A stretch of DNA of 64,000 nt from a virus: positions 38,154 to 102,153 of the IMG/VR virus record IMGVR_UViG_3300028874_000370; one strand, given 5' to 3'. The translations under genes were made by a program, and so were the position numbers. A model generated the notes under the pieces. The model saw nothing but the letters and a program-made list of their open reading frames with translations, did no database searches and had not been told where the DNA came from. Shown piece by piece: positions 38,186-53,237 of this stretch; position 1 is the first letter of the stretch; every line of letters begins with the position of its first letter.

Positions 38186-38628
38186 TTTATTTCCTTTTTA
38201 GGTGGTTTACCCGTCCTAAATAATGATTTTTCGGTGAGGACGCGGAATGACATACCATGATTTTCACAGAATTGTTTAGCAGCTTTCCATTTAGCCATAT
38301 TGATAGCAATCGCAACTTTGTCATATGTACTAGATTTTTTTGTTAACACAGATTCTTTATAAGGTTTAATCTCGATTATTTCTCGTATCATTTCACCTTT
38401 AGCATTTCTATACATAATAAAAAAATCCGGATAGTATCGATGTATTTTTTTAGTAGTAGGCTTCAAATACGGAATATGAATTTCTTCACTACCCCATTGC
38501 ATAATACTAATATTATTGTCACAAAACTCCATAAACCGTTTTTCCCAACTGGACCGATAGGTAATATTTTCTACATTACCTACATATTTTTCTGGATAAT
38601 TAGGATGGAATAAACCTTTTGATGTCAT
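38182..38628 (-). CDS. gp4: head completion protein gp4-like
   Basis: The protein has 148 aa (T4 gp4 150) and follows its pattern closely: YVGNVENITYRSSWEKRFMEF, SEEIHIPYLKPTT, KIHRYYPDFFI, EIIEIKPYKES and KWKAAKQFCENHGMSFRVLTE. The Asp and Glu in YPDFF and EIIEIKP look like a PD-(D/E)xK nuclease-type core. In T4, gp4 acts in head completion so that tails can attach. It overlaps both neighbours by four bases. Confidence 0.88.
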   Translation of the reverse strand: MTSKGLFHPNYPEKYVGNVENITYRSSWEKRFMEFCDNNISIMQWGSEEIHIPYLKPTTKKIHRYYPDFFIMYRNAKGEMIREIIEIKPYKESVLTKKSSTYDKVAIAINMAKWKAAKQFCENHGMSFRVLTEKSLFRTGKPPKKEIK

Positions 38629-39821
38629 ACTGATGTATCCATAGTAAATACATTTGGCGAACTAGGTGTATATGTTTCCAAACTATTAATTTGTGCAGCT
38701 TGTCCAGATGTTGGCGGGATAGTAAATGGATTAGAAATTCCAGATGTGCTCTGATCAATCATTGGTGTAGCTGAAGAAATTGTAGCTCCGGCCATATCTA
38801 ATTCACTAGTAGCAGATGATACAACACCTGGTGTTAATTGAGGCATCCATGATGAAGGGCTAGATGTCAAAAATGGTTGTGATGAACTAGATGATGTATT
38901 ATCAGCGCCCATTAATGTATAACTAAAAGGAGTTCTTCCAACCGATTCAGCATTCCCGATAATATCAGATTGGCCCCATGCATATAATGGAGTCCCTGAT
39001 GTTGGCGAATCCATCATATACAATGCATCATAGCTAAATGAACAAGCTAAACTATTTCCTTCCGATGATTCATGTGTCAAATTATCAAAGTCAAAACTTT
39101 CAATTTTTGGATTACTAAAAATGAAAGTATTCATTCTAGATCCATTAGCATAAACCTGAACAACCTCAATGTAATTTAAAATGTTCTTATTTCCACCAGC
39201 CAGTAAACCCATAGAAGCACTATATGTTCCTGTAGTTCCGGGAGTAGTAAAACTCATTCCAGATGTTTCAAACAATGAACTTTGACTATATGATAATGAT
39301 GATACTGGCGAATATGCAGTTCGATATGCATTAAAAAAATCAGAAACCTTATTTTGGATATCATCATGAAAAACCATATTCAAAGGCTCATGCTTAATAG
39401 ACTTTAATATCCTGGTTTTAAAGTTATACATATTGACATCTTCATATTCGAAAGTGACTTTTGGCTTATCAATTTCTTTGATGACATACATGAATTCTCT
39501 ATTGAATTGACTGCTGTATGGATCGTTGAAAATGAATTTAACTTTAAATAAAAATCTAAATTTTGGTTGGAATTTAACTAAGTCTGCTGCATATCGAATT
39601 GAATTCCAAACACCGTTTCCGCTTGTGTTTGCTGTACTGACACCAGATGGAATTCCTGTTGGTGAACTAGCACCCGAAGAAAATATTCCATTCGACCCCG
39701 ATGCGTCATAAAGCTGACTCAAAGATTGTTGATTATTGAAATTTTGAACACTTGACCCAAACACACTAGTAGACTGTTGTTGAATACTAGCATTGGTAAG
39801 AAGCGAAGAAAGATCTGACAT
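38625..39821 (-). CDS. tube-like baseplate/tail protein (gp54/gp19 fold)
   Basis: ATG 39821 (MSDLSSLL) is preferred; the longer frame starts with GTG. The core (about residues 85-270) reads FKPKFRFLFKVKFIFNDP, REFMYVIKEIDKPKVTFEYE, TRILKSIKHEPLNMVFHDD and NPKIESFDFDNLTHESSEGN. This is the strand order of tail-tube-fold proteins such as T4 gp19, gp48 and gp54. The Ser/Gly-rich ends are flexible. A tube-initiator or tube-terminator role is likely, but which T4 gene it equals is undecided. Late box 39845-39852 lies 24 bp upstream. Confidence 0.65.
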   Translation of the reverse strand: MSDLSSLLTNASIQQQSTSVFGSSVQNFNNQQSLSQLYDASGSNGIFSSGASSPTGIPSGVSTANTSGNGVWNSIRYAADLVKFQPKFRFLFKVKFIFNDPYSSQFNREFMYVIKEIDKPKVTFEYEDVNMYNFKTRILKSIKHEPLNMVFHDDIQNKVSDFFNAYRTAYSPVSSLSYSQSSLFETSGMSFTTPGTTGTYSASMGLLAGGNKNILNYIEVVQVYANGSRMNTFIFSNPKIESFDFDNLTHESSEGNSLACSFSYDALYMMDSPTSGTPLYAWGQSDIIGNAESVGRTPFSYTLMGADNTSSSSSQPFLTSSPSSWMPQLTPGVVSSATSELDMAGATISSATPMIDQSTSGISNPFTIPPTSGQAAQINSLETYTPSSPNVFTMDTSV

Positions 39822-39844
39822 AGTTAGCACCACTTATATTTCTA

Positions 39845-39852: not shown

Positions 39853-39858
39853 GAAAAC

Positions 39859-39888
39859 AAAAAAGGAGCCATTAATGGCTCCTTTTTT
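39859..39888 (-). terminator. terminator of the glycan island
   Basis: A perfect 30-nt palindrome with a GGAGCCAT/ATGGCTCC core and six A / six T at its ends lies 19 bp after the stop of the 719-aa gene. It is a bidirectional-type rho-independent terminator. Confidence 0.88.
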
Positions 39889-39906
39889 GAGTAGTGATAA
39901 AAAACT

Positions 39907-42066
39907 TTATGTGGTTCCGATGATCATATATCGATCATATAGCTCACATGGTAATGTTCCTTTATACAGAATATTACTAAAAGTACATTGGGCTTCGAAT
40001 GCTTCTAGGCTCTCTGAACTACTATGATGATCAATGTGTGAAAAATAATTATTGCTTTGTACAACTACGAGTTTGCCTTTTGGTATTTTCTCAAACCATT
40101 TAGGAATACTCTCCAAGTGTTCACAGCTAGTATTGATTAGGACGTTCCAAGAGATACCAAAGTGACCGGCAGCACTTAGACATGTAGTTCTTTCATAGTC
40201 TATGTCTAGCATGTCTCCTGTCGCCGCCTTAAACCTCCACCCATCAATGACATTATCGATGTTAAATAGGTCTGCTATCTTCTCGCATTTGGGGTCTTTA
40301 TCTAAGCTGACTATTTTCTGGATATTTTCTGGTTTATCATATAACTGAAATATGAAATTTGACAGTGAACCAATCCATCCGGCCAACACCAAGATATTTA
40401 ATTTGTCAACCAAATGTAGATTATTCAATTCATCAATGAGCCAAAATTTACTTAGCAATTGATCTCGACTTAAACAATCTCTGATCTCCGGTAAAGTAAT
40501 TTCAATAGATGGATCATATAAAAGACTAGTGAGATTGACTATTGTTTTTGTATCAATTTTGTTGTATCTGGTATACAGAAGTTCTTGTGTTTTTAGGTTC
40601 ATTAGTTGTTCTCTGAATTTTTTATTTAACCATTTAAAATCATTAATTTTAGATAGGTCATTTATACTATTAGCAAATCGTATTCCATATTCACCACCTA
40701 ATGTAGCACCCAATAACACAAAGAAAGAATAATCTCCTTTAGCTTCAGTTAGCCAGGTATTAAGACGTTGCTCTGATTGTGGATCGCTATTTTTAATCAC
40801 TCCACTAGCCAATTTGGTGCATTCTCTAAATGCACTACGAAAAGCATGAAATTCATCTGAATTAAAATGAGTAGTTGAGGCGACTTGATTTATAAGTTTA
40901 ACACCACTTCCTAATAATGTAGACATATCGACAAATTTATCACTAGCATTTTTGAACATTGACTTATGGAATAATTTAATGCCGCCATATCCGTATTCTA
41001 GGCCATTGACTGGATTTCTACATTTCCATATATGCACATATTGTTCTTCTTCAGCAAACCTAATATGGTCAAATTTAAAAAAATCTTCTACTATTGAATC
41101 ACCATCAACCACGTAAAAACTTGGAGTTGATGATAGAATACTTGCTTGAATGTGTGCATTTAGAATCCCATCGACTTTATGAACACACTTAGCATATGGA
41201 AATCTATTAATTAGATCTTCCCAATTTTTTTGTGCATTTGGCTCATCATATGATATGAAGATAATGTCATCCGATTGAAGAACATGACTGCATTTTATTT
41301 CATCGATTAATTTGATTTCAGCCCCACCAAAGTCATATTCGAAATTTGGTCTACTAGTATCTAAATTTTTAAAAGTGTTCTTATTGATTAAATACAATCC
41401 ATCATGAGTGAATCGCCTTTTGTGATCATAATCACAGGCCCAACTATGAATATATTTTTCATCATAAGAGTGAGGAACAAAACTAAAATCAAAATCTTCC
41501 GGGATGTAATCACAATGAATAACATAAAAATTATCCGTCTCTGCGATCTCACAAGCTTTTATTAACACTTCTTTCTTATTTGATGCGTCAACTCTTTTAA
41601 CTTCAGGCGCAATATTTTTAACAATATCAAAAGTTCTATTGTTTAATGGATCATTCTCTGATATAACCATAACATCAAGTAAACTTTTTTTAGATACTAT
41701 TCGGTCAATGTACTTTATATTTGTGGTGAACTCTGATAAAATTCTTTCTTTGTTGATTAAAAAAACTCCATCAAACCCGCTTTTATAATCATCACATGGA
41801 TTAGATTCAATCAACTCATATTGCCATGAATGACAATATTTTTCATCAAATTCAGCATACTCAAATTCAAAATCTAAAATTTCAAATTCATGATTAACAA
41901 CAAAGAAATTGGAAGTTAAAGAAAGTTTTGCTGCTTTCTTAAATGCAACAATTCCTTTATCTGAAGTAATCAGTTTTTTTAAGTGTGGATATTTTTTCTT
42001 ATGTCTGTTGAATCTGGATATGCTGCGTGCTGACCCATCTACTAAAAATATGATATCTAATGCCAT
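39907..42066 (-). CDS. multi-module glycosyltransferase-like protein with methyltransferase-like C-terminus (719 aa)
   Basis: The first ~410 residues contain three repeats of a glycosyltransferase-like unit, each with an acidic 'xxVVDGDSIV / YVIHCDYIP / FVVNHEFEI' segment and a 'HSW/HIW...YGYGGIKLF...FDGVFLINK' segment. The third repeat is clearly paralogous to 47506-48441 (YISYDEP, ITIDGDNIV, YGNGGVKLW). The C-terminal ~200 residues (LNILVLAGWIGSLSNFI, KIVSLDKDPKCEKIADLF) look like a Rossmann methyltransferase. It may build or modify a glycan. It has a TATAAT-like sequence upstream and ends at the strong 39859 terminator. Confidence 0.65.
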   Translation of the reverse strand: MALDIIFLVDGSARSISRFNRHKKKYPHLKKLITSDKGIVAFKKAAKLSLTSNFFVVNHEFEILDFEFEYAEFDEKYCHSWQYELIESNPCDDYKSGFDGVFLINKERILSEFTTNIKYIDRIVSKKSLLDVMVISENDPLNNRTFDIVKNIAPEVKRVDASNKKEVLIKACEIAETDNFYVIHCDYIPEDFDFSFVPHSYDEKYIHSWACDYDHKRRFTHDGLYLINKNTFKNLDTSRPNFEYDFGGAEIKLIDEIKCSHVLQSDDIIFISYDEPNAQKNWEDLINRFPYAKCVHKVDGILNAHIQASILSSTPSFYVVDGDSIVEDFFKFDHIRFAEEEQYVHIWKCRNPVNGLEYGYGGIKLFHKSMFKNASDKFVDMSTLLGSGVKLINQVASTTHFNSDEFHAFRSAFRECTKLASGVIKNSDPQSEQRLNTWLTEAKGDYSFFVLLGATLGGEYGIRFANSINDLSKINDFKWLNKKFREQLMNLKTQELLYTRYNKIDTKTIVNLTSLLYDPSIEITLPEIRDCLSRDQLLSKFWLIDELNNLHLVDKLNILVLAGWIGSLSNFIFQLYDKPENIQKIVSLDKDPKCEKIADLFNIDNVIDGWRFKAATGDMLDIDYERTTCLSAAGHFGISWNVLINTSCEHLESIPKWFEKIPKGKLVVVQSNNYFSHIDHHSSSESLEAFEAQCTFSNILYKGTLPCELYDRYMIIGTT

Positions 42067-42092
42067 ATGTTATTTTATTTTTCGTATACCTA

Positions 42093-42800
42093 TTATATCA
42101 TTGAATTGATATAGTTTTCTAAATCTTTTGGAGTTCCAACACCATGCATTTCATCCACTTGGCTTATTGCTATTTTATGACCCAATTCAGCATTTTGTGT
42201 ATAAATCGGAGCCACATAAAATTCATTATTAGTTCTGATGTTTTTATCAATCATCAATTCAGCGGCTTCAACAAACTTAGATCCATTAGACCAAAAATAT
42301 AATCCAGCAGTAGCGTGAGTTGAAATAGGATTTTTCTCTTCCACTTTAATAACTAGACCAGCATCATCTAGTAAGACAAAACTCCATTTAGGATCAACAT
42401 CTTCGAAAGTCATAATCAATCCATCATGAGTTAACAATAATGATAATGCTTTAGGATCCCAATGAATGATGTTGTCTGAATTCATTATAGCTAATACATC
42501 GTCATTGTTTATTAGATCTTTTGCTAATAACACAGTTCTGGCAGCCCCATCAGTAACATGGTCGATTAGTATTACATCAGAACCCAGCCAATTGGATGTT
42601 AAAAATTCTGTTGCATTATATAGAGCCTCATGTTCTTTCAATACCAGAAATATTTTATGTGACTCTACTGGAAAGGTATTGACCACATGCTCAATCATGG
42701 TTTTACCTAAAAACCTGATGAATGGCTTAGCATCTTCATATCCAGCGTTTTTAAATCTTTCTCCTTTTCCAGCCATAGGAATAACCAAATTTATTTTCAT
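42093..42800 (-). CDS. sugar-phosphate nucleotidyltransferase
   Basis: This 235-aa NTP_transferase-family protein starts with the nucleotide-binding signature NLVIPMAGKGERF (about 4-16) and DAKPFI (Lys25), followed by IMNSDNIIHW (metal Asp). It would form an NDP-sugar from NTP and a sugar phosphate. It overlaps the HAD gene (ATGA junction), a pairing typical of activated-sugar synthesis where the HAD protein dephosphorylates an intermediate. The substrate is unknown. Confidence 0.85.
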   Translation of the reverse strand: MKINLVIPMAGKGERFKNAGYEDAKPFIRFLGKTMIEHVVNTFPVESHKIFLVLKEHEALYNATEFLTSNWLGSDVILIDHVTDGAARTVLLAKDLINNDDVLAIMNSDNIIHWDPKALSLLLTHDGLIMTFEDVDPKWSFVLLDDAGLVIKVEEKNPISTHATAGLYFWSNGSKFVEAAELMIDKNIRTNNEFYVAPIYTQNAELGHKIAISQVDEMHGVGTPKDLENYINSMI

Positions 42801-43399
42801 ATTTTTCTAAGTTGCTCTAATGTGATCAGTGTACGGTTATTTACAAATTCTACATTAGCTTTGGCCTCATGAGCTGCTTTCAATCCAGCAATGGAATCTT
42901 CGAAAATTATAGTATCTTCATTAGAAATATTAAAACGAGCCATTATAGTATTAAAAATCTCTGGATCTGGTTTTGATCTAAATACTTCATTTCCAGCAAT
43001 ACTAAAATCTATGAATTCTGATAGACCAAGTGATTGAATAATTTTATCAACATATACTCTTCTCGAATTTGATCCTATTGCTATACGTATTCCTTTGTTC
43101 TTAATCCTTGAGAATTCAGATATAAGCAATTCATTCTTTTGAATAGAACCGAAAGCATTTAATGTCAAACTTTCTTTGAGTTCATCTATTGATTTAACAA
43201 TTTCATCAGAGAGACCATACTGCGCTCTCAGGCATTCCAATTTGTTGGTAGTACGGATACCATCACTCGCTGTTAGGTAATGTTCCCTGGACGCTTCCTC
43301 GTGAACCCGAGTGTATACTGCATCTCGTAATGCTGAAGTATGAATATGAGTTGTATTTGCTAATACTCCATCCATATCAAAAATGGCAAGTTTAATCAT
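42797..43399 (-). CDS. HAD-superfamily phosphatase / phosphoglucomutase-like
   Basis: The protein has 200 aa: motif I FDMDGVL (Asp8, Asp10), motif II in IGSNSRR, Lys in FRSKPDPEIF and motif IV IIFEDSIAGLKAAHEA. The cap is of the beta-phosphoglucomutase type. It acts on a sugar phosphate, probably in the pathway of the adjacent nucleotidyltransferase. A late box (43451-43458) lies inside the upstream gene and may add late expression. Confidence 0.85.
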   Translation of the reverse strand: MIKLAIFDMDGVLANTTHIHTSALRDAVYTRVHEEASREHYLTASDGIRTTNKLECLRAQYGLSDEIVKSIDELKESLTLNAFGSIQKNELLISEFSRIKNKGIRIAIGSNSRRVYVDKIIQSLGLSEFIDFSIAGNEVFRSKPDPEIFNTIMARFNISNEDTIIFEDSIAGLKAAHEAKANVEFVNNRTLITLEQLRKI

Positions 43400-43826
43400 A
43401 CATGGCTCCTACTAAATCAGAACATACTCCATATATATTGCTTTGGACATTATTTATACCCATACCGATTTCTGGCATGACCGCAATACTATTTTGGCAC
43501 AATTGTTTTCCTGGGTAGGTCCAAAAATAACCAGATGATGTTAATACTCGATCATCAGTATCGTGCCAGAAGAAGTGTTCGATTTGATTTTTATTTAGTT
43601 CTATCAATGCTTCTAAATTTTTAGCATGACACCAAAGGCCTTTCTTTTTTAAAAAAGATACCGGAACGGCATAAGTTGGAGTATCATGCCCGAGATAAAA
43701 TCCATCTTCGGTGTACCATACATCAATTTCGGTGTTGTATTTTTTTAAAGTGTTTACGACATATGTCGGATCATTCTCTAAAGTTGATGGGCCTTCAGTA
43801 TTACCCCGGTGCGATATTAAAATCAT
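43392..43826 (-). CDS. GDPD-like (glycerophosphodiesterase/PLC-type) small protein
   Basis: The protein has 144 aa. ISHRGNTEGP near the start, TEIDVWYTEDGFYLGHD at about 33-49 and HFFWHDTDD follow the His/Glu-Asp/His pattern of GDPD-type TIM-barrel phosphodiesterases, but it is shorter than usual (about 240). It is therefore a minimal or divergent member. Its place between glycosyltransferase-like and HAD genes suggests action on a glycerophosphate- or phosphosugar-containing substrate. Confidence 0.6.
   Translation of the reverse strand: MILISHRGNTEGPSTLENDPTYVVNTLKKYNTEIDVWYTEDGFYLGHDTPTYAVPVSFLKKKGLWCHAKNLEALIELNKNQIEHFFWHDTDDRVLTSSGYFWTYPGKQLCQNSIAVMPEIGMGINNVQSNIYGVCSDLVGAMYD
43451..43458 (-). 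promoter_or_regulatory. internal late promoter box
   Basis: An exact minus-strand TATAAATA lies within the 43392-43826 gene, 52 bp before the HAD gene start. It may be chance, because it is inside coding sequence, but its spacing is right for a late promoter. Confidence 0.35.
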
Positions 43827-44581
43827 GATATGTAAAAGTCCTCATGGATTTTATTGATTTTATGATAATCGGTTATATGATGTAGACCACTAGCATTGTG
43901 CCGCACTATTGTTTCGTGCGCATTAGTTACATTCATTTGGATATTGCTATCCCGACAATATTTGTATAATAATGCCTCTGGGCTACATATCATCTCGTTT
44001 GATGGCTTACGTTTTAATAGTGTCATACAGTTATTATACTGGTTTGCTAAATGATCCATCACAATAGAATTAGCATAATATATACGATCATGCGCAAATG
44101 GATAATTGCCAGGTCGGCTAACAGAATTATTATAAGTATTGTCAATCCATGAAAAATATGCAGAATTATGAACAAGTTCAACAGGATCAAAAAATAAATT
44201 ATGATTCCATATCAAATCAAATCTACATTTGACTACGATATCATATTGGAATTCATTCACTAATTCATAATTCTTTTTTAGATTGTTAGCATGCATCAAA
44301 GAATATAATTGTGGAAGAGTACTAGAATAAATAAATTTTTTATCTTCATCTATTTTAATAGAAATAGGATTATAAAATTTAACAATCTTATTGAAGGTCT
44401 CTTTTTGGACTTGATTAGTAGTAACAACACCTTTCTTTTCTGCATCACGATATCTAGTGGTATCATGATTCCATACATGGATAAAATAATCCGGATTAGC
44501 CTTTGAAAAATATCTAAGAATTCCTGGAGCAGCCGTTTCAAATGTTCTTGGCTGTCCAGTTAATAATACAGCAACACGCAT
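43823..44581 (-). CDS. glycosyltransferase-like protein (252 aa)
   Basis: MRVAVLLTGQPRTFETAAPG at the start, then FIHVWNHDT and YDIVVKCRFDLIWN (Arg-Phe-Asp as a D-x-D-like acidic site), match the style of uncharacterised glycosyltransferase-like proteins found in viral and bacterial surface-glycan loci. It overlaps the GDPD-like gene by four bases. Sugar donor and acceptor are unknown. Confidence 0.6.
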   Translation of the reverse strand: MRVAVLLTGQPRTFETAAPGILRYFSKANPDYFIHVWNHDTTRYRDAEKKGVVTTNQVQKETFNKIVKFYNPISIKIDEDKKFIYSSTLPQLYSLMHANNLKKNYELVNEFQYDIVVKCRFDLIWNHNLFFDPVELVHNSAYFSWIDNTYNNSVSRPGNYPFAHDRIYYANSIVMDHLANQYNNCMTLLKRKPSNEMICSPEALLYKYCRDSNIQMNVTNAHETIVRHNASGLHHITDYHKINKIHEDFYIS

Positions 44582-44583
44582 TG

Positions 44584-46086
44584 TTATTTTCCTGGTTGAA
44601 TATAATCTTGTGAACCTGGATTAGCTTTACATGGCTCAGCAATCCATCCTTCAGTTTCGGAAATATTATTTATTAATTGAATCGGGATTGTTTTCGTAAC
44701 TGGGATAGAATCATACCATCCAGATAACATAGGAAAAGTCTTTTTGAAATCTTTTCCTCTTCGTTGATCATACTGAGTAAAGAAACTTTTGAAATCCCGT
44801 TGTCTTGATTCTATACTGGATGTATAATCATGCCCAACTTGAATTTCTCTAAGATATGCGATTAATCTTTCCAATCCTTCGTATTCCATTTGATGAAGAT
44901 TGCCTCTGCCTCTGCCTCTTTTTGTTTGGGGCTGATTAAACCAATTTTCTTTCAACCAAACCTCTAAATGATCTGCTCGTTCATGCCTAAAGTTTTCCGG
45001 TAAAGTTACTACACTTTGAAAACTTGGAAATCTCAATATATTAAAGCTCATAAAAGCACAATGATTGCCATATTCCTTTTTGATTTCAATCATTGCATCC
45101 ATGAATTCAGTAATAGAAAATAAACAAAGACTATTGATAGTCATCATCATATTCAACTGCTTAATATTTCCTTCACTTAATAATTTTTTAATATTCCCTA
45201 GCCAAGACCCCCAAACCAGTCCATCTCGGATATATTCGGCCGCATTACCAAATGATTCATTAGAAGTATACAATACAAATTTTTTAAAGCTATGAGAGGT
45301 ATCGCATAGCTTTTGGATTAGTTTTTGATTAACACCCAAATTAGAATTAACGGCAAATTGAACTTCGCACTCGGGGTGTTCTTTCCACCAATCAATAAGC
45401 TTCCAAAAATCTTGGCTCATCATTGCTTCGCCACCAGTTACCCGGAGTTCAGTCAATGTATATTGAAGATCTTTCTCCCACCATTCCATGAAAGCTACCA
45501 CATATGGATTATTTTCATTCTTGATTCCATATGGCTGTGCCCATGATCCATCAGATTGAAAAGCCGCTGCTCCATCGCTAACCAAATGTTCATACTGTCC
45601 GTTAACCTTAATATCACTCATCCAAGTTGTTGAGAATGAAGGACTACAATATGAACACGCAAAATTACAATTAGAATCAAATGCGATTTCTAATGTTTTG
45701 AGATCTACATCCTGTTCAGGATCCATCTTAGAAGCCAACTCAAGTTCTTTATCTGTGTAAATTACACTTTTGAATACCCGATCGCTAACATGGGTAATCC
45801 CCAGATCTTCTACCTTCCAGCAATAGTCACATTCATCCGGACGGACTCCATCTATCATTTGACCACGAAGTGTTTTTTTGTATTTGGTATTGTGGAGGGC
45901 CTTATAATTATCTTTTAATTCTTCTAACGGGATTTTATGGGCCGGTGGATGATGACATGATGTAGTCATCCCGTTCCCAAGCCAAACAGTGGCATTATAC
46001 CATTTGGCCCCGCAAAAACTAGGACTTAGATTATCTAAGACCCTAGTTTTATAATCTTGGTATGATTCAGTAATTGGTTTAGGCAT
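44584..46086 (-). CDS. radical SAM protein, twitch type, copy 2 (500 aa)
   Basis: ATG 46086 (MPKPITES) is used; earlier TTG codons are unlikely. The [4Fe-4S] motif CNFACSYC is at Cys140/144/147, followed by RVTGGEAMM, the SAM-binding GGE. An N-terminal Cys/His set (Cys25, C44-H-H, C86-x2-C89) may hold an auxiliary cluster. It is clearly paralogous to its neighbour 46079-47506. Such proteins are common in T4-like aquatic phages, but their substrates are unknown. It overlaps its neighbour by eight bases. Confidence 0.85.
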   Translation of the reverse strand: MPKPITESYQDYKTRVLDNLSPSFCGAKWYNATVWLGNGMTTSCHHPPAHKIPLEELKDNYKALHNTKYKKTLRGQMIDGVRPDECDYCWKVEDLGITHVSDRVFKSVIYTDKELELASKMDPEQDVDLKTLEIAFDSNCNFACSYCSPSFSTTWMSDIKVNGQYEHLVSDGAAAFQSDGSWAQPYGIKNENNPYVVAFMEWWEKDLQYTLTELRVTGGEAMMSQDFWKLIDWWKEHPECEVQFAVNSNLGVNQKLIQKLCDTSHSFKKFVLYTSNESFGNAAEYIRDGLVWGSWLGNIKKLLSEGNIKQLNMMMTINSLCLFSITEFMDAMIEIKKEYGNHCAFMSFNILRFPSFQSVVTLPENFRHERADHLEVWLKENWFNQPQTKRGRGRGNLHQMEYEGLERLIAYLREIQVGHDYTSSIESRQRDFKSFFTQYDQRRGKDFKKTFPMLSGWYDSIPVTKTIPIQLINNISETEGWIAEPCKANPGSQDYIQPGK

Positions 46087-47506
46087 TATCAACAATAGGT
46101 TCTACTAAGTTTTTGCATTCGTTATAAAACGGAATCAACTCTGGAAAGGTCGCATGAAAATCGGTATGTCGACGTTTATCATATTCTTTATGATATATGA
46201 AAAAATCTTTCATATTTTTATTTAACTCAGGATCTATCTCATTCATATAATCAACTAGCCGTTCTACCTGATCGATCTCTTCTAAATAAATCCGACCAGC
46301 TTTGTTAGGACTTGTATTTTTTGCATGAGCATAAACATACTCTTTCCATTTAGCTCCATATTCTTTTTTAATATCATCTGGTAAAGATCTTAAATTCAGA
46401 TATTGGGGCCAACGGATATAGTTAATCATCATTGGGATTCTATTATGCGCATCATTGCCATTGTATTCAGTTCTCAGAGTAAAAATAAGATCTAAAAAAT
46501 TATGGAAAGTAGTGACACATAATAAATTTGTAGCGACCATGAAATGTAGACGTTGTTGATCTTCGGTGTTTGATAAAAAATATCTAACATTAGAAACAAA
46601 TTCATCGTAAACCAAACCAAATCTAATATACTCGGCTTGAGACCCAGTTGCTTCTAAACTAGTAAACACATCAAACTGTTTTACTTTACCTTTGAGCTTA
46701 TGTGTGTACTCAACCAATTTGTCTATTAGTTTTCTAGGAACATTCAAATTCGTATTAACAGCGAGTTCTAAATTTGGCTGTGGATTTTCGATTAGATAAT
46801 CAAACACTGCCCAAGTATGTTTAGAGAGCAATGGCTCACCGCCAGTAATCCTAAATACATTGAGAGTTTGAACCAGTTCAGGCCACCACTTCCAGAAAGC
46901 TTCGACATATGGATTGTAATCATCTCGTTTAATTGGAAATCTTCCGGCCGATTTCATCCATTGGATATCATGAATCTTTCCATCAGACAAAGTATAAGGA
47001 CCATACCTCTCAATTTCTTCTGTCCACTTTGAAGACACATCTGGTGTACAGTATGTACATTTGAAATTGCAGGTATTCTCGAATGCTATTTCAACATAGG
47101 TTGGATTGATATATTTACCAATACCCGAATCAAGAACAGTCTTCATACTATCCATGGCCCAAGGAGAAATGCTTTTATACGTCCGATCACTTAAATGATT
47201 ACCAGCATTCTCGATGTTCCAACAGTAATTACATTCCGGTGTCTGAACCCCGTTAAGCATATCTTGTCTAGCAACAAACTTAATTGGAGTATTATGTAGG
47301 GCTTTAGGATCGGCTTCAACCGCAGAAGCTTCTACTTTGTGGGCCGATGGATGATGACATGAATGAGTATATCCATTCCATAAATAAATTGTAGATTGAA
47401 GCCACTTAGCAGTACAGAATGTAGGTGACACTTTATTAATCACCTCATCACGCATTTTATAATACCCATCCATCGCTATTTGGTTGGGGCTTTTTTCTTG
47501 TTCCAT
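46079..47506 (-). CDS. radical SAM protein, twitch type, copy 1 (475 aa)
   Basis: ATG 47506 shares one base with the stop of the preceding gene. The motif CNFKCTYC (Cys146/150/153) and FRITGGEPLL bind cluster and SAM. It has the same N-terminal Cys/His set as the next gene (Cys31, C50-H-H, C92-x2-C95), conserved at matching positions, which argues for a real auxiliary metal site. Two tandem paralogues suggest consecutive or heterodimeric chemistry on a glycan or peptide in this island. Confidence 0.87.
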   Translation of the reverse strand: MEQEKSPNQIAMDGYYKMRDEVINKVSPTFCTAKWLQSTIYLWNGYTHSCHHPSAHKVEASAVEADPKALHNTPIKFVARQDMLNGVQTPECNYCWNIENAGNHLSDRTYKSISPWAMDSMKTVLDSGIGKYINPTYVEIAFENTCNFKCTYCTPDVSSKWTEEIERYGPYTLSDGKIHDIQWMKSAGRFPIKRDDYNPYVEAFWKWWPELVQTLNVFRITGGEPLLSKHTWAVFDYLIENPQPNLELAVNTNLNVPRKLIDKLVEYTHKLKGKVKQFDVFTSLEATGSQAEYIRFGLVYDEFVSNVRYFLSNTEDQQRLHFMVATNLLCVTTFHNFLDLIFTLRTEYNGNDAHNRIPMMINYIRWPQYLNLRSLPDDIKKEYGAKWKEYVYAHAKNTSPNKAGRIYLEEIDQVERLVDYMNEIDPELNKNMKDFFIYHKEYDKRRHTDFHATFPELIPFYNECKNLVEPIVDNA

Positions 47507-48441
47507 TATAATCCTAGTTCTGCTTCGATAGCCATAGACCATGGCGAATGTTGAATAGTTTGTACGCTTTTAAAGAATTTGCTTTGCGATGGATTATAAA
47601 TGCATAATTCCAATCCTATGTATTTTTTAATTTTACTTCCAAGCGCAAAGCACTCTTCGCCTAGTAGCTGATTGGTTTCAAGCCTAGACGAACTTTTGAA
47701 TTTGGCTAATTCTTCTTCACCAAAAGCTTTAAACCATTCATAATCACTAATGTTGGAAAGTTCAAAGTTTGGATCCAGATTAGTCATACAAATCCCGAGG
47801 CGAGTTCCGTAGATAGCAGCTACCCCATTATCGACATCTGCGCCAACACAGGACCACACCAGGAGACGTCGTAAATTTTCCTGATATACCACCTTAGAAA
47901 TCAACACGGGGTCCACTCTGGCTCCCTCGTTGAGTGTCATTTTACATCCTTCACGAAATCCTGCTCGAAAGGCTTGGAACATTGATCCTTCTGGGTGTGT
48001 TATCGATAGAACTGAATCTAATTGAAGATACGTTTTATCCCAACAAAAATCTAATTTTTCTTCTTCTGTTACTGCATTCTCATGAGATTTCATATTATGA
48101 ACCCAATCACGAGTCCACAATTTAACGCCGCCATTACCATAAACTAAACCGTTGATATTGTTGATCGAGTTCCAGCTGAATGCACAATTCTTATATTTTT
48201 CTGGAATATCTATAACCAAATCAAATAACTTTTCATCGACTATGTTATCACCATCTATTGTGATAAATCGGCCAGTTTCACTTTGGTCTGCGCAAGCTTT
48301 ATGGGCCGCATCAAATCCTTTCACACCATGAACCCGTTTAGCCCAGGGTGCTTTCTCTAATAGATTAGCCCAATTTTCTTCACACTTCGGCTCATCATAC
48401 GAGATATAAAATGTATCAAATTCTGATAGTTGTTGTTTCAT
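47506..48441 (-). CDS. glycosyltransferase-like protein (311 aa)
   Basis: The N-terminal half repeats the unit seen three times in the 719-aa protein: FYISYDEPKCEENW, RVHGVKGFDAAHKAC, RFITIDGDNIVDE (D-x-D-like) and NGLVYGNGGVKLW. The C-terminal half resembles that protein's middle region (MFQAFRAGFREGCKMTL versus EFHAFRSAFRECTKLAS). This may be the single-module ancestor or partner. A late-like AATAAATA box lies upstream. No donor specificity can be read. Confidence 0.65.
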   Translation of the reverse strand: MKQQLSEFDTFYISYDEPKCEENWANLLEKAPWAKRVHGVKGFDAAHKACADQSETGRFITIDGDNIVDEKLFDLVIDIPEKYKNCAFSWNSINNINGLVYGNGGVKLWTRDWVHNMKSHENAVTEEEKLDFCWDKTYLQLDSVLSITHPEGSMFQAFRAGFREGCKMTLNEGARVDPVLISKVVYQENLRRLLVWSCVGADVDNGVAAIYGTRLGICMTNLDPNFELSNISDYEWFKAFGEEELAKFKSSSRLETNQLLGEECFALGSKIKKYIGLELCIYNPSQSKFFKSVQTIQHSPWSMAIEAELGL

Positions 48442-48461
48442 ATTATTTTTTTATTGAATAT

Positions 48462-49016
48462 TTATTTTATCACTAATCCATATGTCTCAAATACTTTCCT
48501 CGTGAAAATACTGACCTTAGTGATATCGTGTTTAAAGTCATAGACCATTATTCCATTGGATTGAGATAAGTCCATCATATTAACTTTAATAATTTCTATT
48601 AATTTGTTTGGATTGTTCTTAGACGAAACATAATATTCTATATATTGTTTAGTTTTTTCTAGTGTCCCATATAAAGACCAAGCATATTGGATTAATTCTT
48701 TTTTAAGCTCAATAGTCATTTGGTTAGCTTTTATAGTTACTGTTATTTCAGGATCAGGAACATTCTCTTTTAACAGAATCGGAGTATAAAAAAACTGATT
48801 GACCGCTTCAGATGTTTTTTCTTTTTCTATCAGGTGAGCTTTGTCACCATCAAAATATACAACATATTGATTTAATAAATGAGGAGAGTGAATCAGTTTG
48901 GAACCTAAATCTGGATCAATTCTGATAATATGACATTCATCATCTTGTTTTAGCATTGGTGAATTTCTTCTAATCCTCAATGATTTTTTTTCTACATATA
49001 GATACCAATCATTCAT
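48462..49016 (-). CDS. hypothetical protein (184 aa)
   Basis: I do not recognise it. It starts by a four-base ATGA overlap with the preceding glycosyltransferase-like gene and is charged, alpha/beta, without signal or membrane segments. Position within the island suggests a role with the neighbouring transferases. Confidence 0.7.
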   Translation of the reverse strand: MNDWYLYVEKKSLRIRRNSPMLKQDDECHIIRIDPDLGSKLIHSPHLLNQYVVYFDGDKAHLIEKEKTSEAVNQFFYTPILLKENVPDPEITVTIKANQMTIELKKELIQYAWSLYGTLEKTKQYIEYYVSSKNNPNKLIEIIKVNMMDLSQSNGIMVYDFKHDITKVSIFTRKVFETYGLVIK

Positions 49017-49873
49017 ATCCCGAGTTTCCGTTCCATGGTTTCGATCATTTGATCCGTGATAAAGTCTTTTAAGTGATAATGAAAAGGTAAAGTTTGTTTA
49101 TAATTACCAATAAACAATTCGCCATCTTCAGTAAAATAAGATTGGATTACACTATTCCAATCCTCTGGAATTTTAGGAGCTTTTACTTCTAGATTCCATT
49201 TTTGTAATTGAGTCTTCATATGTACAAAAGTCGGAATTTCTAAATATGAATTATTATTTAATTGTTCCGTATCTAAAATTTTAGCCGCTATAGCAAAGAC
49301 TACATCAGTACTAACAAAAGTAGGTCTTGTTTCTGGTTCCAAAAACTCTGCAAAATATGATTGCCAATTGTAATATATATGCTCTGCTAATTTGAATAAT
49401 TCGAATGCATTATCAGATTTATTAAAATAGAAAAAAGCAGTATATACATTTGGTAAATTATTAGCGGTAAAAACTTTTCTATAATAATCAGATTCTACTT
49501 TCTCATTCCGGTATGTAGAGGCTGATGTAGTAAAAACAATATCTGATTTGCTAAGACTATCCCACCATAAACTGATATCTGTAGTGAATAACATATCAGC
49601 ATCAAGCTTAACAGTCTCATCATACGGAGACATATGGATTGCTTTCCATTCATTCTCCAATTTCCAATCAGAGGAAGCCGCGTGATCACCCCAGGGGATC
49701 TCAATGACCTGATCAAATATGTTCTTATACTGAGGATCAATTGTAGTCCCAGGTGTGATTCCTATTGATAAGGATGAATATTCGAGTTGAGATAGCTTAA
49801 GTGATAAAGCCAAGGCATACGCTAATCTGATATATGCATCACCTTGAGCAATTGTGAAAAATCCTTTACTCAT
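49013..49873 (-). CDS. glycosyltransferase-like protein, GT8-type (286 aa)
   Basis: ATG 49873 (MSKGFFTIAQG) is used; an upstream TTG lies inside the previous gene. The metal motif is LDADMLF, in the context DETVKLDADML, typical of GT-A retaining enzymes that bind a nucleotide sugar. TSASTYR and VYTAFFYFNK follow. It is paralogous to 49866-50765 (MSKG start, SPYDET, LDVDF). The pair overlap by eight bases. Confidence 0.7.
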   Translation of the reverse strand: MSKGFFTIAQGDAYIRLAYALALSLKLSQLEYSSLSIGITPGTTIDPQYKNIFDQVIEIPWGDHAASSDWKLENEWKAIHMSPYDETVKLDADMLFTTDISLWWDSLSKSDIVFTTSASTYRNEKVESDYYRKVFTANNLPNVYTAFFYFNKSDNAFELFKLAEHIYYNWQSYFAEFLEPETRPTFVSTDVVFAIAAKILDTEQLNNNSYLEIPTFVHMKTQLQKWNLEVKAPKIPEDWNSVIQSYFTEDGELFIGNYKQTLPFHYHLKDFITDQMIETMERKLGI

Positions 49874-50765
49874 CTTTATAAATCTCAATCAATTGGTCAA
49901 CAAATTTCAATAATGATAACTTGTTCATGATATGAATATTATGTCCTTTAATTTTTGTAATATAAAAAGCATGTTCATGGTTTTGGTTTTTATATCCGAG
50001 ATCATTGAACATGATAGTAATACTATCTTTTTCTACTTTATGAAGACAATCCCGATCTGTTGAAGTCAAGATAAATGGAGTAGGTAATTTTTTAAATTCA
50101 TCATTTTCTAAAAACCCATTTAGTATATGCAGTGCTATAGAAAAAGCAAAATCATTCCTAAATACGTACCCGCCAAACCCATACAACAATTTGTAATAAT
50201 TCCAGTTATCTCTGATGTATGAGACAAGATCGAAAACCAATTTAACTTGTTCTGTTTTTTTAAAATAGATTGCGGTTGCCCAGACCATTTTGATGCCGGT
50301 CGGATTAAGCCTATATTCTTCACCGAGTAATGGACAATGATCGAGGCCTATAGCTTGATCATTGATCATGAAATCTTCTACACTACCCCAGATATTATTC
50401 AATGATGAATCTTGGATTAGAAAATCTACATCTAATAATAGAGTTTCATCATATGGCGAAAGCGCATAAGCCGAATTTCTATTTGTATTAATGAATTTAT
50501 CGTTGATTGACCAATACTGTGTATTAGAATATTTTCTAATGTTATCAGCACCAGTAGTCCTATCATCTATAATAATTTTATCAAAGATGGCTTCGATTTC
50601 TGATTTATCATTTAGATTTTCTTCTATACTTTTAGAAGAGGTAATTACCGAAATAGATAAATCTTTACCTAAATTTCGTTTACACATTAGTGCATTAGCA
50701 TATGCGATTTTTAGATAATTGACATTTGTATTATTAGAAGCAAAAAATAATATTCCTTTAGACAT
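49866..50765 (-). CDS. glycosyltransferase-like protein, GT8-type (299 aa)
   Basis: The protein starts MSKGILFFASNNT. SPYDETLLLDVDFLIQ gives the D-x-D metal motif, with AIYFKKTEQ further on. It is the upstream paralogue of 49013-49873 and probably adds a related sugar. It begins six bases after the 50772 gene, so translation is continuous through the island. Confidence 0.7.
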   Translation of the reverse strand: MSKGILFFASNNTNVNYLKIAYANALMCKRNLGKDLSISVITSSKSIEENLNDKSEIEAIFDKIIIDDRTTGADNIRKYSNTQYWSINDKFINTNRNSAYALSPYDETLLLDVDFLIQDSSLNNIWGSVEDFMINDQAIGLDHCPLLGEEYRLNPTGIKMVWATAIYFKKTEQVKLVFDLVSYIRDNWNYYKLLYGFGGYVFRNDFAFSIALHILNGFLENDEFKKLPTPFILTSTDRDCLHKVEKDSITIMFNDLGYKNQNHEHAFYITKIKGHNIHIMNKLSLLKFVDQLIEIYKDE

Positions 50766-50771
50766 ATAAAA

Positions 50772-51140
50772 TTACCATTCTAATGCTGGAGAAACACTCC
50801 GGGCTGATCTGATTTTTTTATATTCTAACAAATATTCATTAGTGGCCTGATAGTATCGATCAATAATCTTATCAATAAATGATTCTAGATTTTCTATGAG
50901 AATAGGATTATTATTAATGTCAATCAAAATTGCTTCTTCTTGATTCCTTTGGATCAATGTCCCAACAAATGAAATCAATGATTCAGTGATATGAAATGTC
51001 CCGCCATTTTCAGCAAAGGCTAAAGCTTGCTTATATTTTAGATTGCAGTTTTGGCGTTGGAGAGTGAGAGTATACTTATATCGACTTTTATCAAGAGCTT
51101 GTTCTAAACGCTCGTCATGGTATTTTTGTTCTTCTGACAT
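50772..51140 (-). CDS. hypothetical helical protein (122 aa)
   Basis: A GAGG RBS precedes ATG 51140. Conserved-looking features are YKYTLTLQRQNCNLKYKQALAFAENGGTF and ESFIDKIIDRYYQATNEYL, a helical protein of the kind often found next to tail genes in T4-like phages. The function is unknown. A TATAAT-like sequence and a terminator hairpin (51181-51208) lie upstream. Confidence 0.7.
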   Translation of the reverse strand: MSEEQKYHDERLEQALDKSRYKYTLTLQRQNCNLKYKQALAFAENGGTFHITESLISFVGTLIQRNQEEAILIDINNNPILIENLESFIDKIIDRYYQATNEYLLEYKKIRSARSVSPALEW

Positions 51141-51230: not shown

Positions 51231-52565
51231 TTATGTAGTGATTGCTGAAGATGTTACCGTAGGCCAAGCAATCACAGGATTATCAAGTATTGTATGTAAA
51301 GGACGAACTACAGAAGTCACTGAATGTAGTGTTCCACCCACACCACCATATAATGTTCCAGCACTACCATAATTAATCACAAAATTAATTTGATCAGTCC
51401 CAACCAAATATGCATTAATTGAATATGTATCTTGACCATCTGGATCACCACTAGAACCAGAAAATGTAAATATTTGCTGTGACGTAGTTGTCAAATTATA
51501 CAAACCAATTGATCCAGTATCACTAGCCGAATCGACTGTCCCGGTTACACTGAATGTAACGGTTCCGCGTGCTGCTAAGAATGCCTGAACATCAAAATCA
51601 CGACCGGTCAACGGACTAGTTAATGATGGAATAAATTGAATTTGGCCGCCAGCATTAAAGAAAGCATTCATTGCTGCTTGATTAGCCCATGTCACGGAAA
51701 TATCATGAACTAAAGGACCGTTCCATGTAGAAGAATATGTTTGAGTTCCGGCCGAAGGAGTTTCGGATTCTAATGAACCAGAAACTGGTTTAAACCGAGT
51801 TGTTCCGGCACTGAAACTATTTACCACCGTAAGAGTGTTTGCATATTGGGTTAGCATTGTCACTATACCAATAGGGATCACATTACCTGGCTGATACATA
51901 AACCCATATGGCGAAACATTAGTTGTACTTAAACCAAGATATGTACAAATGCTATTGATTTGTGCAATCAAAGAAAGCCACATAGTATTTGTTAGATTGC
52001 CAACAGTAGCATTAGGAATAACTGCGCCAGTTTGTCCCCAACCAAAGGCCGTAGCTAATGTAGAACCGACTGGGGATCCAATGATTTGATTAATCAATGC
52101 GGCCATGGCATTGTATTCCGTCACATATGCTACATTGACTGAAGTTGTGCTAGGATAAACTTGATCCCATTTTGTGCCATCATATATACTGAGGACACCA
52201 TTTGATGTATTGTACCATAGTTGACCAACTGTGCCTGGGCTTGGTTCTGTTGTTCCGGTAGAAACTCCACCACCACATTCAGCCCAGGGGCCATTAGATG
52301 TATCAATGTTTGCTGCATTATAAACCATCAACGATTGAGTTGTGGTATCATACCAGAGTTGTCCTGTTGTTGGAACAGCTGGTGCTGTACTGTCAGCAAA
52401 ATTTTCTAATAACCATAACAAATTTTCTTGGAGTTGTTGACCCCAATTTGCACTTCCTCGACCAGTCAAAGTAAGTGATGTATCTGATGTATCTGTTGTT
52501 TGTGGAAGTACAGTAAATGATGGCTTACTAGAACTTGTCCAGGTAAACGTATATTGATCGCTCAT
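51231..52565 (-). CDS. virion structural protein with GQLWY modules (444 aa)
   Basis: The N-terminal ~130 residues contain LTLTGRGSANWGQQLQENLLWLLENFA and two modules of the form GQLWYDTTTQSLMVY...W and GQLWYNTSNGVLSIYDGTKW. Such modules also occur in gp13 and in the fibre adaptors of this window. The remainder is beta-rich with a DISVTWANQAAMNAFFNAGG block. This protein type follows the tube and sheath genes in many T4-like phages and is probably a tail or baseplate surface protein. A late-like AATAAATA box and a 13-bp hairpin (52599-52635) precede it. Confidence 0.75.
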   Translation of the reverse strand: MSDQYTFTWTSSSKPSFTVLPQTTDTSDTSLTLTGRGSANWGQQLQENLLWLLENFADSTAPAVPTTGQLWYDTTTQSLMVYNAANIDTSNGPWAECGGGVSTGTTEPSPGTVGQLWYNTSNGVLSIYDGTKWDQVYPSTTSVNVAYVTEYNAMAALINQIIGSPVGSTLATAFGWGQTGAVIPNATVGNLTNTMWLSLIAQINSICTYLGLSTTNVSPYGFMYQPGNVIPIGIVTMLTQYANTLTVVNSFSAGTTRFKPVSGSLESETPSAGTQTYSSTWNGPLVHDISVTWANQAAMNAFFNAGGQIQFIPSLTSPLTGRDFDVQAFLAARGTVTFSVTGTVDSASDTGSIGLYNLTTTSQQIFTFSGSSGDPDGQDTYSINAYLVGTDQINFVINYGSAGTLYGGVGGTLHSVTSVVRPLHTILDNPVIAWPTVTSSAITT

Positions 52566-52655: not shown

Positions 52656-53237
52656 TTACAATGTACCGCCAATTGCTGTTCCTAGACCAGGTTGAACAAT
52701 AGTCTGTGAAGCTTGATCAAAGCGAATTTGTAAACTAATAGTCACAACTTCAGATGCACCATAATCTAGTTCGCCGTAATCACTACCAGTAATCCAGCAA
52801 CCTTCAATAAGCCATTCTTCTAGAACTGTATCATTACCATCTAGTTGATCTAGCTTAATACCAAATTTATAGGCAGAAGCTGTCGCAGCTGTAGCAAGGT
52901 ACGGACCTGAAGCACCAACCAAAAGTTGTTGTGCATCTAATTGTGATTGAATAATAGAAGTAGCAAGACCAGTCACATCATCTTGTACAACCAAATTCAT
53001 TGCTTCCCATTCATGCTTACCAGCCACATAGGCTGTTGAGTTATATCGATCAAGCTTAACTTGTTCGAATGTTAAATTGGGACGAGTTACAGTAATTGCT
53101 TGCATTGATAAATCAGACGAATTACCACCCGCACTAGATCCAATTCCTTGGAATAGCACGCGCCATTTATTTTTCAACTTAGGCATTAATATACCGAAAC
53201 CTACGCCAGGGATTCCGACTTGACTTAGGGTAGCCAT
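52656..53237 (-). CDS. gp19: tail tube protein gp19-like
   Basis: The protein has 193 aa (T4 gp19 163), with the tube-fold order: VGIPGVGFGILMPKLKNKWRVLF, LSMQAITVTRPNLTFEQVKLDRYNS, HEWEAMNLVVQDDVTG, LEEWLIEGCWITGSDYGELDYGASEVVTISLQIRFD in segments. It stacks as hexamers to form the inner tail tube. It lies directly after the sheath gene, as in T4. Two late boxes (53252-53259 and 53285-53292) precede it, fitting its need for high copy number. Confidence 0.9.
   Translation of the reverse strand: MATLSQVGIPGVGFGILMPKLKNKWRVLFQGIGSSAGGNSSDLSMQAITVTRPNLTFEQVKLDRYNSTAYVAGKHEWEAMNLVVQDDVTGLATSIIQSQLDAQQLLVGASGPYLATAATASAYKFGIKLDQLDGNDTVLEEWLIEGCWITGSDYGELDYGASEVVTISLQIRFDQASQTIVQPGLGTAIGGTL

Follow-up and report, generated by a model that had tools for sequence, protein, structure and literature searches.

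The DNA discussed here is a window of 64,000 nucleotides (the whole stretch analysed), positions 38154-102153 of the 102,153-base virus record IMGVR_UViG_3300028874_000370. Our subject is an island within it, at 39907-51140, in which twelve open reading frames (g01 to g12) follow one another on the minus strand. A preliminary description, made from the letters alone, had drawn the island with the same boundaries, counting ten genes where there are twelve and calling them mostly overlapping, which they are: seven of the eleven junctions overlap, and the range runs from a 37-bp overlap to a 26-bp gap. A 90-bp gap lies on the upstream side, and a terminator-like hairpin after g01 closes the operon. 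Its 14-pair stem is the longest in the 15 kb scanned; only the stem length and position carry weight, because terminator-like sites as a class are no commoner there than in shuffled sequence. The late-promoter motif TATAAATA is no more frequent than chance, and a megablast of the island against phages returned no match. We tentatively read the operon, together with the fibre-like gene c9 upstream, as a fibre-linked module for glycan biosynthesis and decoration, set among the late structural genes of a large myovirus of the T4 superfamily; two radical S-adenosylmethionine (SAM) enzymes of the module would edit a sugar.

The heart of this module is a block of genes running from c9 through g12, g11, g10 and g09 to g08 (Table 1). 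A reciprocal scan with g08 gave at least 598 viral matches, and 60 loci with room upstream were taken for a closer look, picked by g08 similarity and with redundancy kept, which makes the fractions descriptive. The run g12-GT8-GT8-g09-g08 is complete in 52 of the 60, its order fixed across loci at 38-50% protein identity, and 37 have a radical SAM gene in the 6 kb downstream of the block. For c9 the test set was 59 loci outside those used to build the c9 model; in 57 of these a c9-like gene stands no more than two genes upstream of g12. Because of these block and c9 counts, set against 37 of 60 for the radical SAM genes, we can say that the module consists of a fibre-like gene and a glycosyltransferase block, to which radical SAM genes are often, but not always, added as cargo. 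A cargo hot spot, whose genes are unrelated passengers kept for different reasons, would suit g01 to g05, which vary between relatives, and also the cultured phage XacN1, which has other cargo nearby, between sheath and tube. It sits badly with the fixed order of the core block, for which it was already disfavoured, and with the recurrence of g08-radical SAM pairing in bacteria; we consider it very improbable.

What do the proteins of the block look like? The glycogenin match of the paralogues g10 and g11 covers the DxD region shared with GT8 enzymes, and extends over only about 100 aligned residues. In g08, D63 and D65 are invariant (alignment A6), and the predicted model (predicted local distance difference test, pLDDT, 92) retrieves GT-A enzymes and nucleotidyltransferases in Foldseek, the best at 4e-4; a sequence search of solved structures with the g08/g01 profile found nothing useful. 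Of the five glycosyltransferase-like proteins claimed in the preliminary description, g10 and g11 are borne out by the glycogenin match, g08 by its predicted fold and g01 by the g08 domain it carries, which leaves g05, whose DUF7796 match lies below the cut-off, as a possible member.

Table 1. Coordinates of the features discussed, in window positions unless a contig handle precedes them
Feature	Coordinates	Strand	Evidence
Second tail-tube-family protein (tube paralogue), downstream neighbour	38625..39833	-	phrog_4542 1e-13
Terminator-like hairpin closing operon, after g01	39858..39889	-	14-pair stem, loop 4, T-rich tail
g01, 719-aa fusion: g08-type domain copies and a different C-terminal domain	39907..42066	-	alignments A3, A7
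g02, sugar nucleotidyltransferase	42093..42800	-	PF00483 2e-10; with g03 and g04 homologues in L153
g03, HAD phosphatase, beta-phosphoglucomutase subfamily	42797..43399	-	PF13419 3e-25; TIGR02009 2e-28, below its cut-off
g04, GDPD-like short protein, variable cassette	43392..43826	-	HRG...D.W...DG...GHD motif by eye; phrog_34507 (unnamed) 1e-16
g05, possible glycosyltransferase, variable cassette	43823..44581	-	phrog_13607 2e-17; DUF7796 2e-4, below cut-off
g06, radical SAM B, N-terminal twitch type	44584..46095	-	NF033640 302 bits; alignment A1
g07, radical SAM A, N-terminal twitch type	46079..47542	-	NF033640 336 bits; alignment A1; model pLDDT 87
g08, GT-A-fold glycosyltransferase-like, invariant DxD	47506..48441	-	alignment A6; predicted model; Foldseek
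g09, 184-aa conserved protein	48462..49016	-	alignment A5; found in 56/60 loci
g10, GT8-like glycosyltransferase, g11 paralogue	49013..49888	-	alignment A2, near-invariant DxD; glycogenin by profile 4e-8
g11, GT8-like glycosyltransferase	49866..50765	-	alignment A2; glycogenin by profile 4e-8
g12, 122-aa conserved protein	50772..51140	-	alignment A4; in 59/60 loci upstream of g08
c9, fibre-like virion protein, block's first gene	51231..52565	-	phrog_15511 5e-14; phrog_14394 (virion structural protein) 1e-9
Tail tube protein, upstream neighbour	52656..53237	-	phrog_4542 2e-43; XacN1 ORF351 match 1e-52
GCSxT-motif protein examples	L053:15481-16260; L008:12197-13027; L007:663-1550		

The radical SAM enzymes g07 and g06, called A and B from here on, are about 35% identical to each other. 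Both lie above the curated cut-off (170 bits) of the NCBIfam model NF033640 (N_Twi_rSAM), within which they belong to a CHHP-bearing branch and are paired in one operon. The extra Cys/His set that the preliminary description had picked out is indeed invariant across 14 diverse members: C43, C62-H63-H64-P65, H68, C104 and C107-W108 (the CHHP/CxYCW set). Invariant too in the 14 sequences are C158, C162 and C165 of the CxxxCxxC radical SAM motif at 158-165. Judged from these sequences alone, the four invariant cysteines of the N-terminal part (43, 62, 104 and 107) are compatible with ligands of an auxiliary cluster. Neither A nor B matches SPASM in Pfam (PF13186). Paralogues in the same arrays as their relatives do, N-terminal to the barrel, and it is because of these that we read A and B as probable diverged offshoots of an architecture with the SPASM/twitch domain at the N terminus. 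The well-known SPASM/twitch enzymes likewise join a radical SAM barrel to a Cys-rich auxiliary domain, but carry it at the C terminus. A search of solved structures by sequence with g07 alone found nothing useful; the predicted model of A has its best solved fold match in BlsE (7e-5), whose substrate is a sugar nucleoside, with weaker matches that include SkfB and EpeE.

SkfB and EpeE bring to mind a different role, that of maturases of proteins or peptides, with A and B working on a virion protein such as c9, g09 or g12; the glycosyltransferases would then use the modified site or work independently. The N-terminal SPASM of related paralogues and the presence of two small conserved proteins, g09 and g12, in the block are in keeping with it. 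The wider distribution of the enzymes is not. A scan with A uncovered at least 529 viral stretches encoding relatives, of which 80 loci were kept and 38 remained after dereplication at 90% identity. Fourteen of the 38 have an upstream block of the window's type, 5 have neither kind of block, and 19 have a second glycan block (methyltransferase, GT2, GT7, GT7) that is followed by radical SAM genes and does without g09 and g12. Because those 19 loci lack both small proteins, g09 and g12 are not a general radical SAM substrate. In bacteria, moreover, the co-occurrence is with g08-type genes, and we regard a maturase role as unlikely.

Viral loci hold from one to eight radical SAM cluster genes. 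In loci other than the window's they lie downstream of GT7, GT2 and methyltransferase genes and near genes for a UDP-sugar dehydrogenase, an NAD-dependent epimerase and a carbamoyltransferase. Among cultured phages, tblastn with g06, g07 and g08 and with relatives of g08, g10 and g12 gave no match; a relative of g07 found the sole one, a radical SAM protein of 23% identity in two Vibrio phages. A further recurrent neighbour of the viral radical SAM genes is a type of protein bearing a GCSxT motif, which by eye resembles SGNH hydrolases and in some cases is assigned to DUF6071.

The downstream end of the island behaves quite differently from the block. Genes g01 to g05 differ between relatives, where g02 to g05 are rare, and homologues of g03, g02 and g04 are adjacent in one other viral contig (L153), g02 being otherwise rare; g02 to g05 act like a swappable cassette. 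All twelve genes as one conserved pathway was an idea we rejected on account of that rarity. The preliminary description's case for a glycan pathway is well supported. Its argument from tight coupling to a single pathway stands for the core, g12-GT8-GT8-g09-g08 behind a fibre-like gene, which is syntenic in most of the sampled viral loci, and was too strong for all twelve; scattered, independent occurrence, which it had named as telling against a pathway, is seen for g02 to g05 and not for the core. Its sugar nucleotidyltransferase (g02) and HAD phosphatase (g03) are sound, and its GDPD-like protein (g04) keeps that name by motif reading, with no match in Pfam and a PHROG match to an unnamed family. 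In g01 the A6 (g08) profile matches at 2e-38 and 5e-5, and the C-terminal domain, which exists elsewhere as a stand-alone protein, appears methyltransferase-like by motif and had no relative among solved structures. One viral contig (L048:12134-17247) has six consecutive g05-like genes in tandem, adjoining a radical SAM gene.

Relatives of A and B are also found in bacteria, the nearest of them mainly in predators. A genome-contig scan with the A/B alignment gave 65 loci, about 46 with Bdellovibrionota-type names and six that look viral. We then have counts from three genome sets: the phylum to which a Bdellovibrionaceae bin belongs (192 genomes), the phylum to which a Pelagibacterales bin belongs (299) and 14 controls, with the phylum names (Bdellovibrionota and Pseudomonadota) read from record titles. 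At a family-model threshold of E 1e-40 the radical SAM family is present in 55 of the 192 Bdellovibrionota genomes, as against 3 of the 299 Pseudomonadota and none of the controls, and one of those three is the Pelagibacterales bin itself, by way of a viral-looking contig. The g08-type genes occur in 12 of the 192, all of them within the 55 (hypergeometric P 1e-7, ignoring relatedness), and in 0 of the 299. In several of the 12 genomes the g08-type genes have as neighbours radical SAM genes and genes related to the C-terminal domain of g01, and some Bdellovibrionota loci place radical SAM genes beside GT2, sugar transferase and polysaccharide genes. Viral and bacterial branches are intermixed in a FastTree phylogeny whose deep order is unsure: at least seven changes between them are forced, and the nearest company of the window's A is from Oligoflexia and Bdellovibrionales. 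Homologues of A and B are adjacent on one Oligoflexia contig. Assigning a host from metagenome-assembled genome bins was tried and rejected, evidently viral contigs being binned with many unrelated hosts.

One Bdellovibrionota contig (L237:10389-14800, G169:C21) holds a c9-like gene, g12, GT8, GT8, g09 and g08 together with radical SAM genes, these lying downstream of two genes that we read as pheS and pheT. It is a single case, possibly a chimaeric assembly, and g12 is found in only 1 of the 192 genomes. Because this contig has the fibre-like gene along with the whole block, it favours the fibre and the glycosyltransferases acting together. Large myoviruses and predatory Bdellovibrionota might, then, share a modular toolkit: N-terminal twitch/SPASM radical SAM enzymes, often in arrays, that would edit glycans alongside a GT-A enzyme of the g08 family dedicated to them, joined in viruses by a fibre-like protein. 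That would amount to a new class of radical glycan-tailoring enzymes decorating adhesive or surface structures, a proposal we hold to be doubtful as a whole.

Three observations on the bacterial loci deserve mention in their own right. In the genome behind L115, a Bdellovibrionia bin, a 29-kb stretch (G002:C1:745513-774880) has 13 matches above the NF033640 cut-off, a dense radical SAM array in a presumed predator. Locus L239 (G129:C15:637000-656000) combines several radical SAM genes of different subfamilies with g08-type and g01 C-terminal-domain genes. In L107, L096, L118, L135 and L148, N_Twi radical SAM genes stand beside genes read as ribosomal proteins L21/L27, a recurrent chromosomal site in Bacteriovoracaceae-like contigs.

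How might the pieces work together? The likely product of the operon is an unusual sugar coat, on either the virus particle or the host. In the fibre-linked reading, the conserved block from c9 to g08 would build and transfer a glycan, and the downstream cassette would supply and tailor sugars, g02 to g04 perhaps leading to an activated sugar or sugar derivative. A and B would use a 5'-deoxyadenosyl radical to edit the carbohydrate, whether by epimerising, dehydrogenating or deoxygenating it, and an auxiliary [4Fe-4S] cluster in the N-terminal part would likely relay electrons. The acceptor would be, by a small margin, likelier a virion protein, either c9 or the tube paralogue with its Ser/Thr-rich ends, than a host polysaccharide. 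We lean this way because of the enzyme families and folds, the counts for the block, the fibre-like gene and the radical SAM genes, the radical SAM genes near sugar genes in other viruses, the g08-radical SAM pairing in Bdellovibrionota and the action of BlsE on a sugar nucleoside. Several things pull against it. SPASM/twitch enzymes mostly modify peptides or proteins; 23 of the 60 blocks have no radical SAM gene nearby; many bacterial relatives of A and B (L134, for example) lack glycan genes in their vicinity; the fold matches of g08 are low in TM-score, about 0.3; and there was no Pfam GT8 match among 28 members of the g10/g11 family, nor any Pfam glycosyltransferase match for g10 and g11 themselves.

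The same genes could instead remodel the host's surface polysaccharide while infection is under way, for instance so as to shut out other phages; the sugar edited by A and B would then belong to the host glycan. Remodelling of this kind was proposed for the GT8 genes of pelagimyophages (PMC7029224), and some bacterial radical SAM relatives lie beside genes for O-antigen-type ABC transporters, GT1/GT2, carbamoyltransferases and sugar transferases. Yet nearly every viral test locus, and the one bacterial contig as well, ties the block to a fibre-like virion gene, and the block lies in the virion gene region, which together make host remodelling, to our minds, rather unlikely. T4-superfamily phages can also glucosylate their DNA, and hypermodification of viral DNA with sugars is a further possibility. 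The late structural location, the sharing of key genes with bacterial chromosomes and the failure of family searches to recognise a base-modifying gene in the operon render it the most improbable of these explanations.

Cassettes of GT8 and radical SAM genes have been published before, in the pelagimyophage host recognition cluster (PMC7029224). That cluster resembles ours in being a structural-region island of T4-like marine phages with tail-fibre, GT8 and radical SAM genes, all three of which are found here as well. It differs in lying between VrlC and gp14, whereas our island is between tail tube and head completion genes in a virus related to GAP32 and XacN1, and the available text names neither the radical SAM family nor a Bdellovibrionota link. 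In mycobacteriophages, phage-encoded glycosyltransferases decorate structural proteins, including tail tube C termini (Freeman et al. 2023, cited in PMC12619734); the accessible part of PMC12619734 describes no radical SAM enzymes there, and virion glycosylation in our virus is suggested by its genes. In the open literature searched, no paper turned up that connects viruses with Bdellovibrionota through this radical SAM family, which is weak evidence of absence. The fibre-like gene as part of the module, the conserved upstream block and the Bdellovibrionota link are new here, none being in the preliminary description.

To our knowledge, few radical SAM enzymes act on glycans, and at least 529 viral relatives with a recurrent partner glycosyltransferase make a defined, testable system. 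If the enzymes do edit virion sugars, phages build chemically unusual coats by radical chemistry. Predatory bacteria use phage-tail-fibre-like adhesins (PMC10769870), and genes common to phages and predatory bacteria offer a concrete handle on whether components pass between the surface systems of phage and predator.

As to the setting, the virus has the tail sheath, tube, sheath stabiliser, head completion and large terminase proteins of T4-like families by PHROG matches, which places it in the T4 superfamily. The island lies between the tail tube and head completion (38182) genes, inside the virion gene region, with tail sheath (53402), sheath stabiliser (55153) and head-tail adaptor (57509) genes also around it. 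Judged by its tail sheath, the virus is nearest, among cultured phages, to the jumbo myoviruses XacN1, CBB and GAP32, and because of this the record probably covers part of a larger genome. The matching interval of XacN1 and GAP32 lacks the island: tube, ORF350, tube paralogue and head completion genes are contiguous in XacN1, and three genes separate sheath from head completion in GAP32. The window's tube paralogue has Ser/Thr-rich N- and C-terminal extensions (30% and 34%, with Ser+Thr at 34% in residues 277-402); its XacN1 relative does without such ends. Because of these ends, and of the glycans on mycobacteriophage tube C termini (cited in PMC12619734), the paralogue may be a candidate acceptor, a lead rather than a test. 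In XacN1 the sheath-to-tube interval (L150:17128-24082) is filled mostly with opposite-strand cargo, including an NAD+ synthetase gene, and because of where that cargo sits, insertions seem drawn to this structural stretch.

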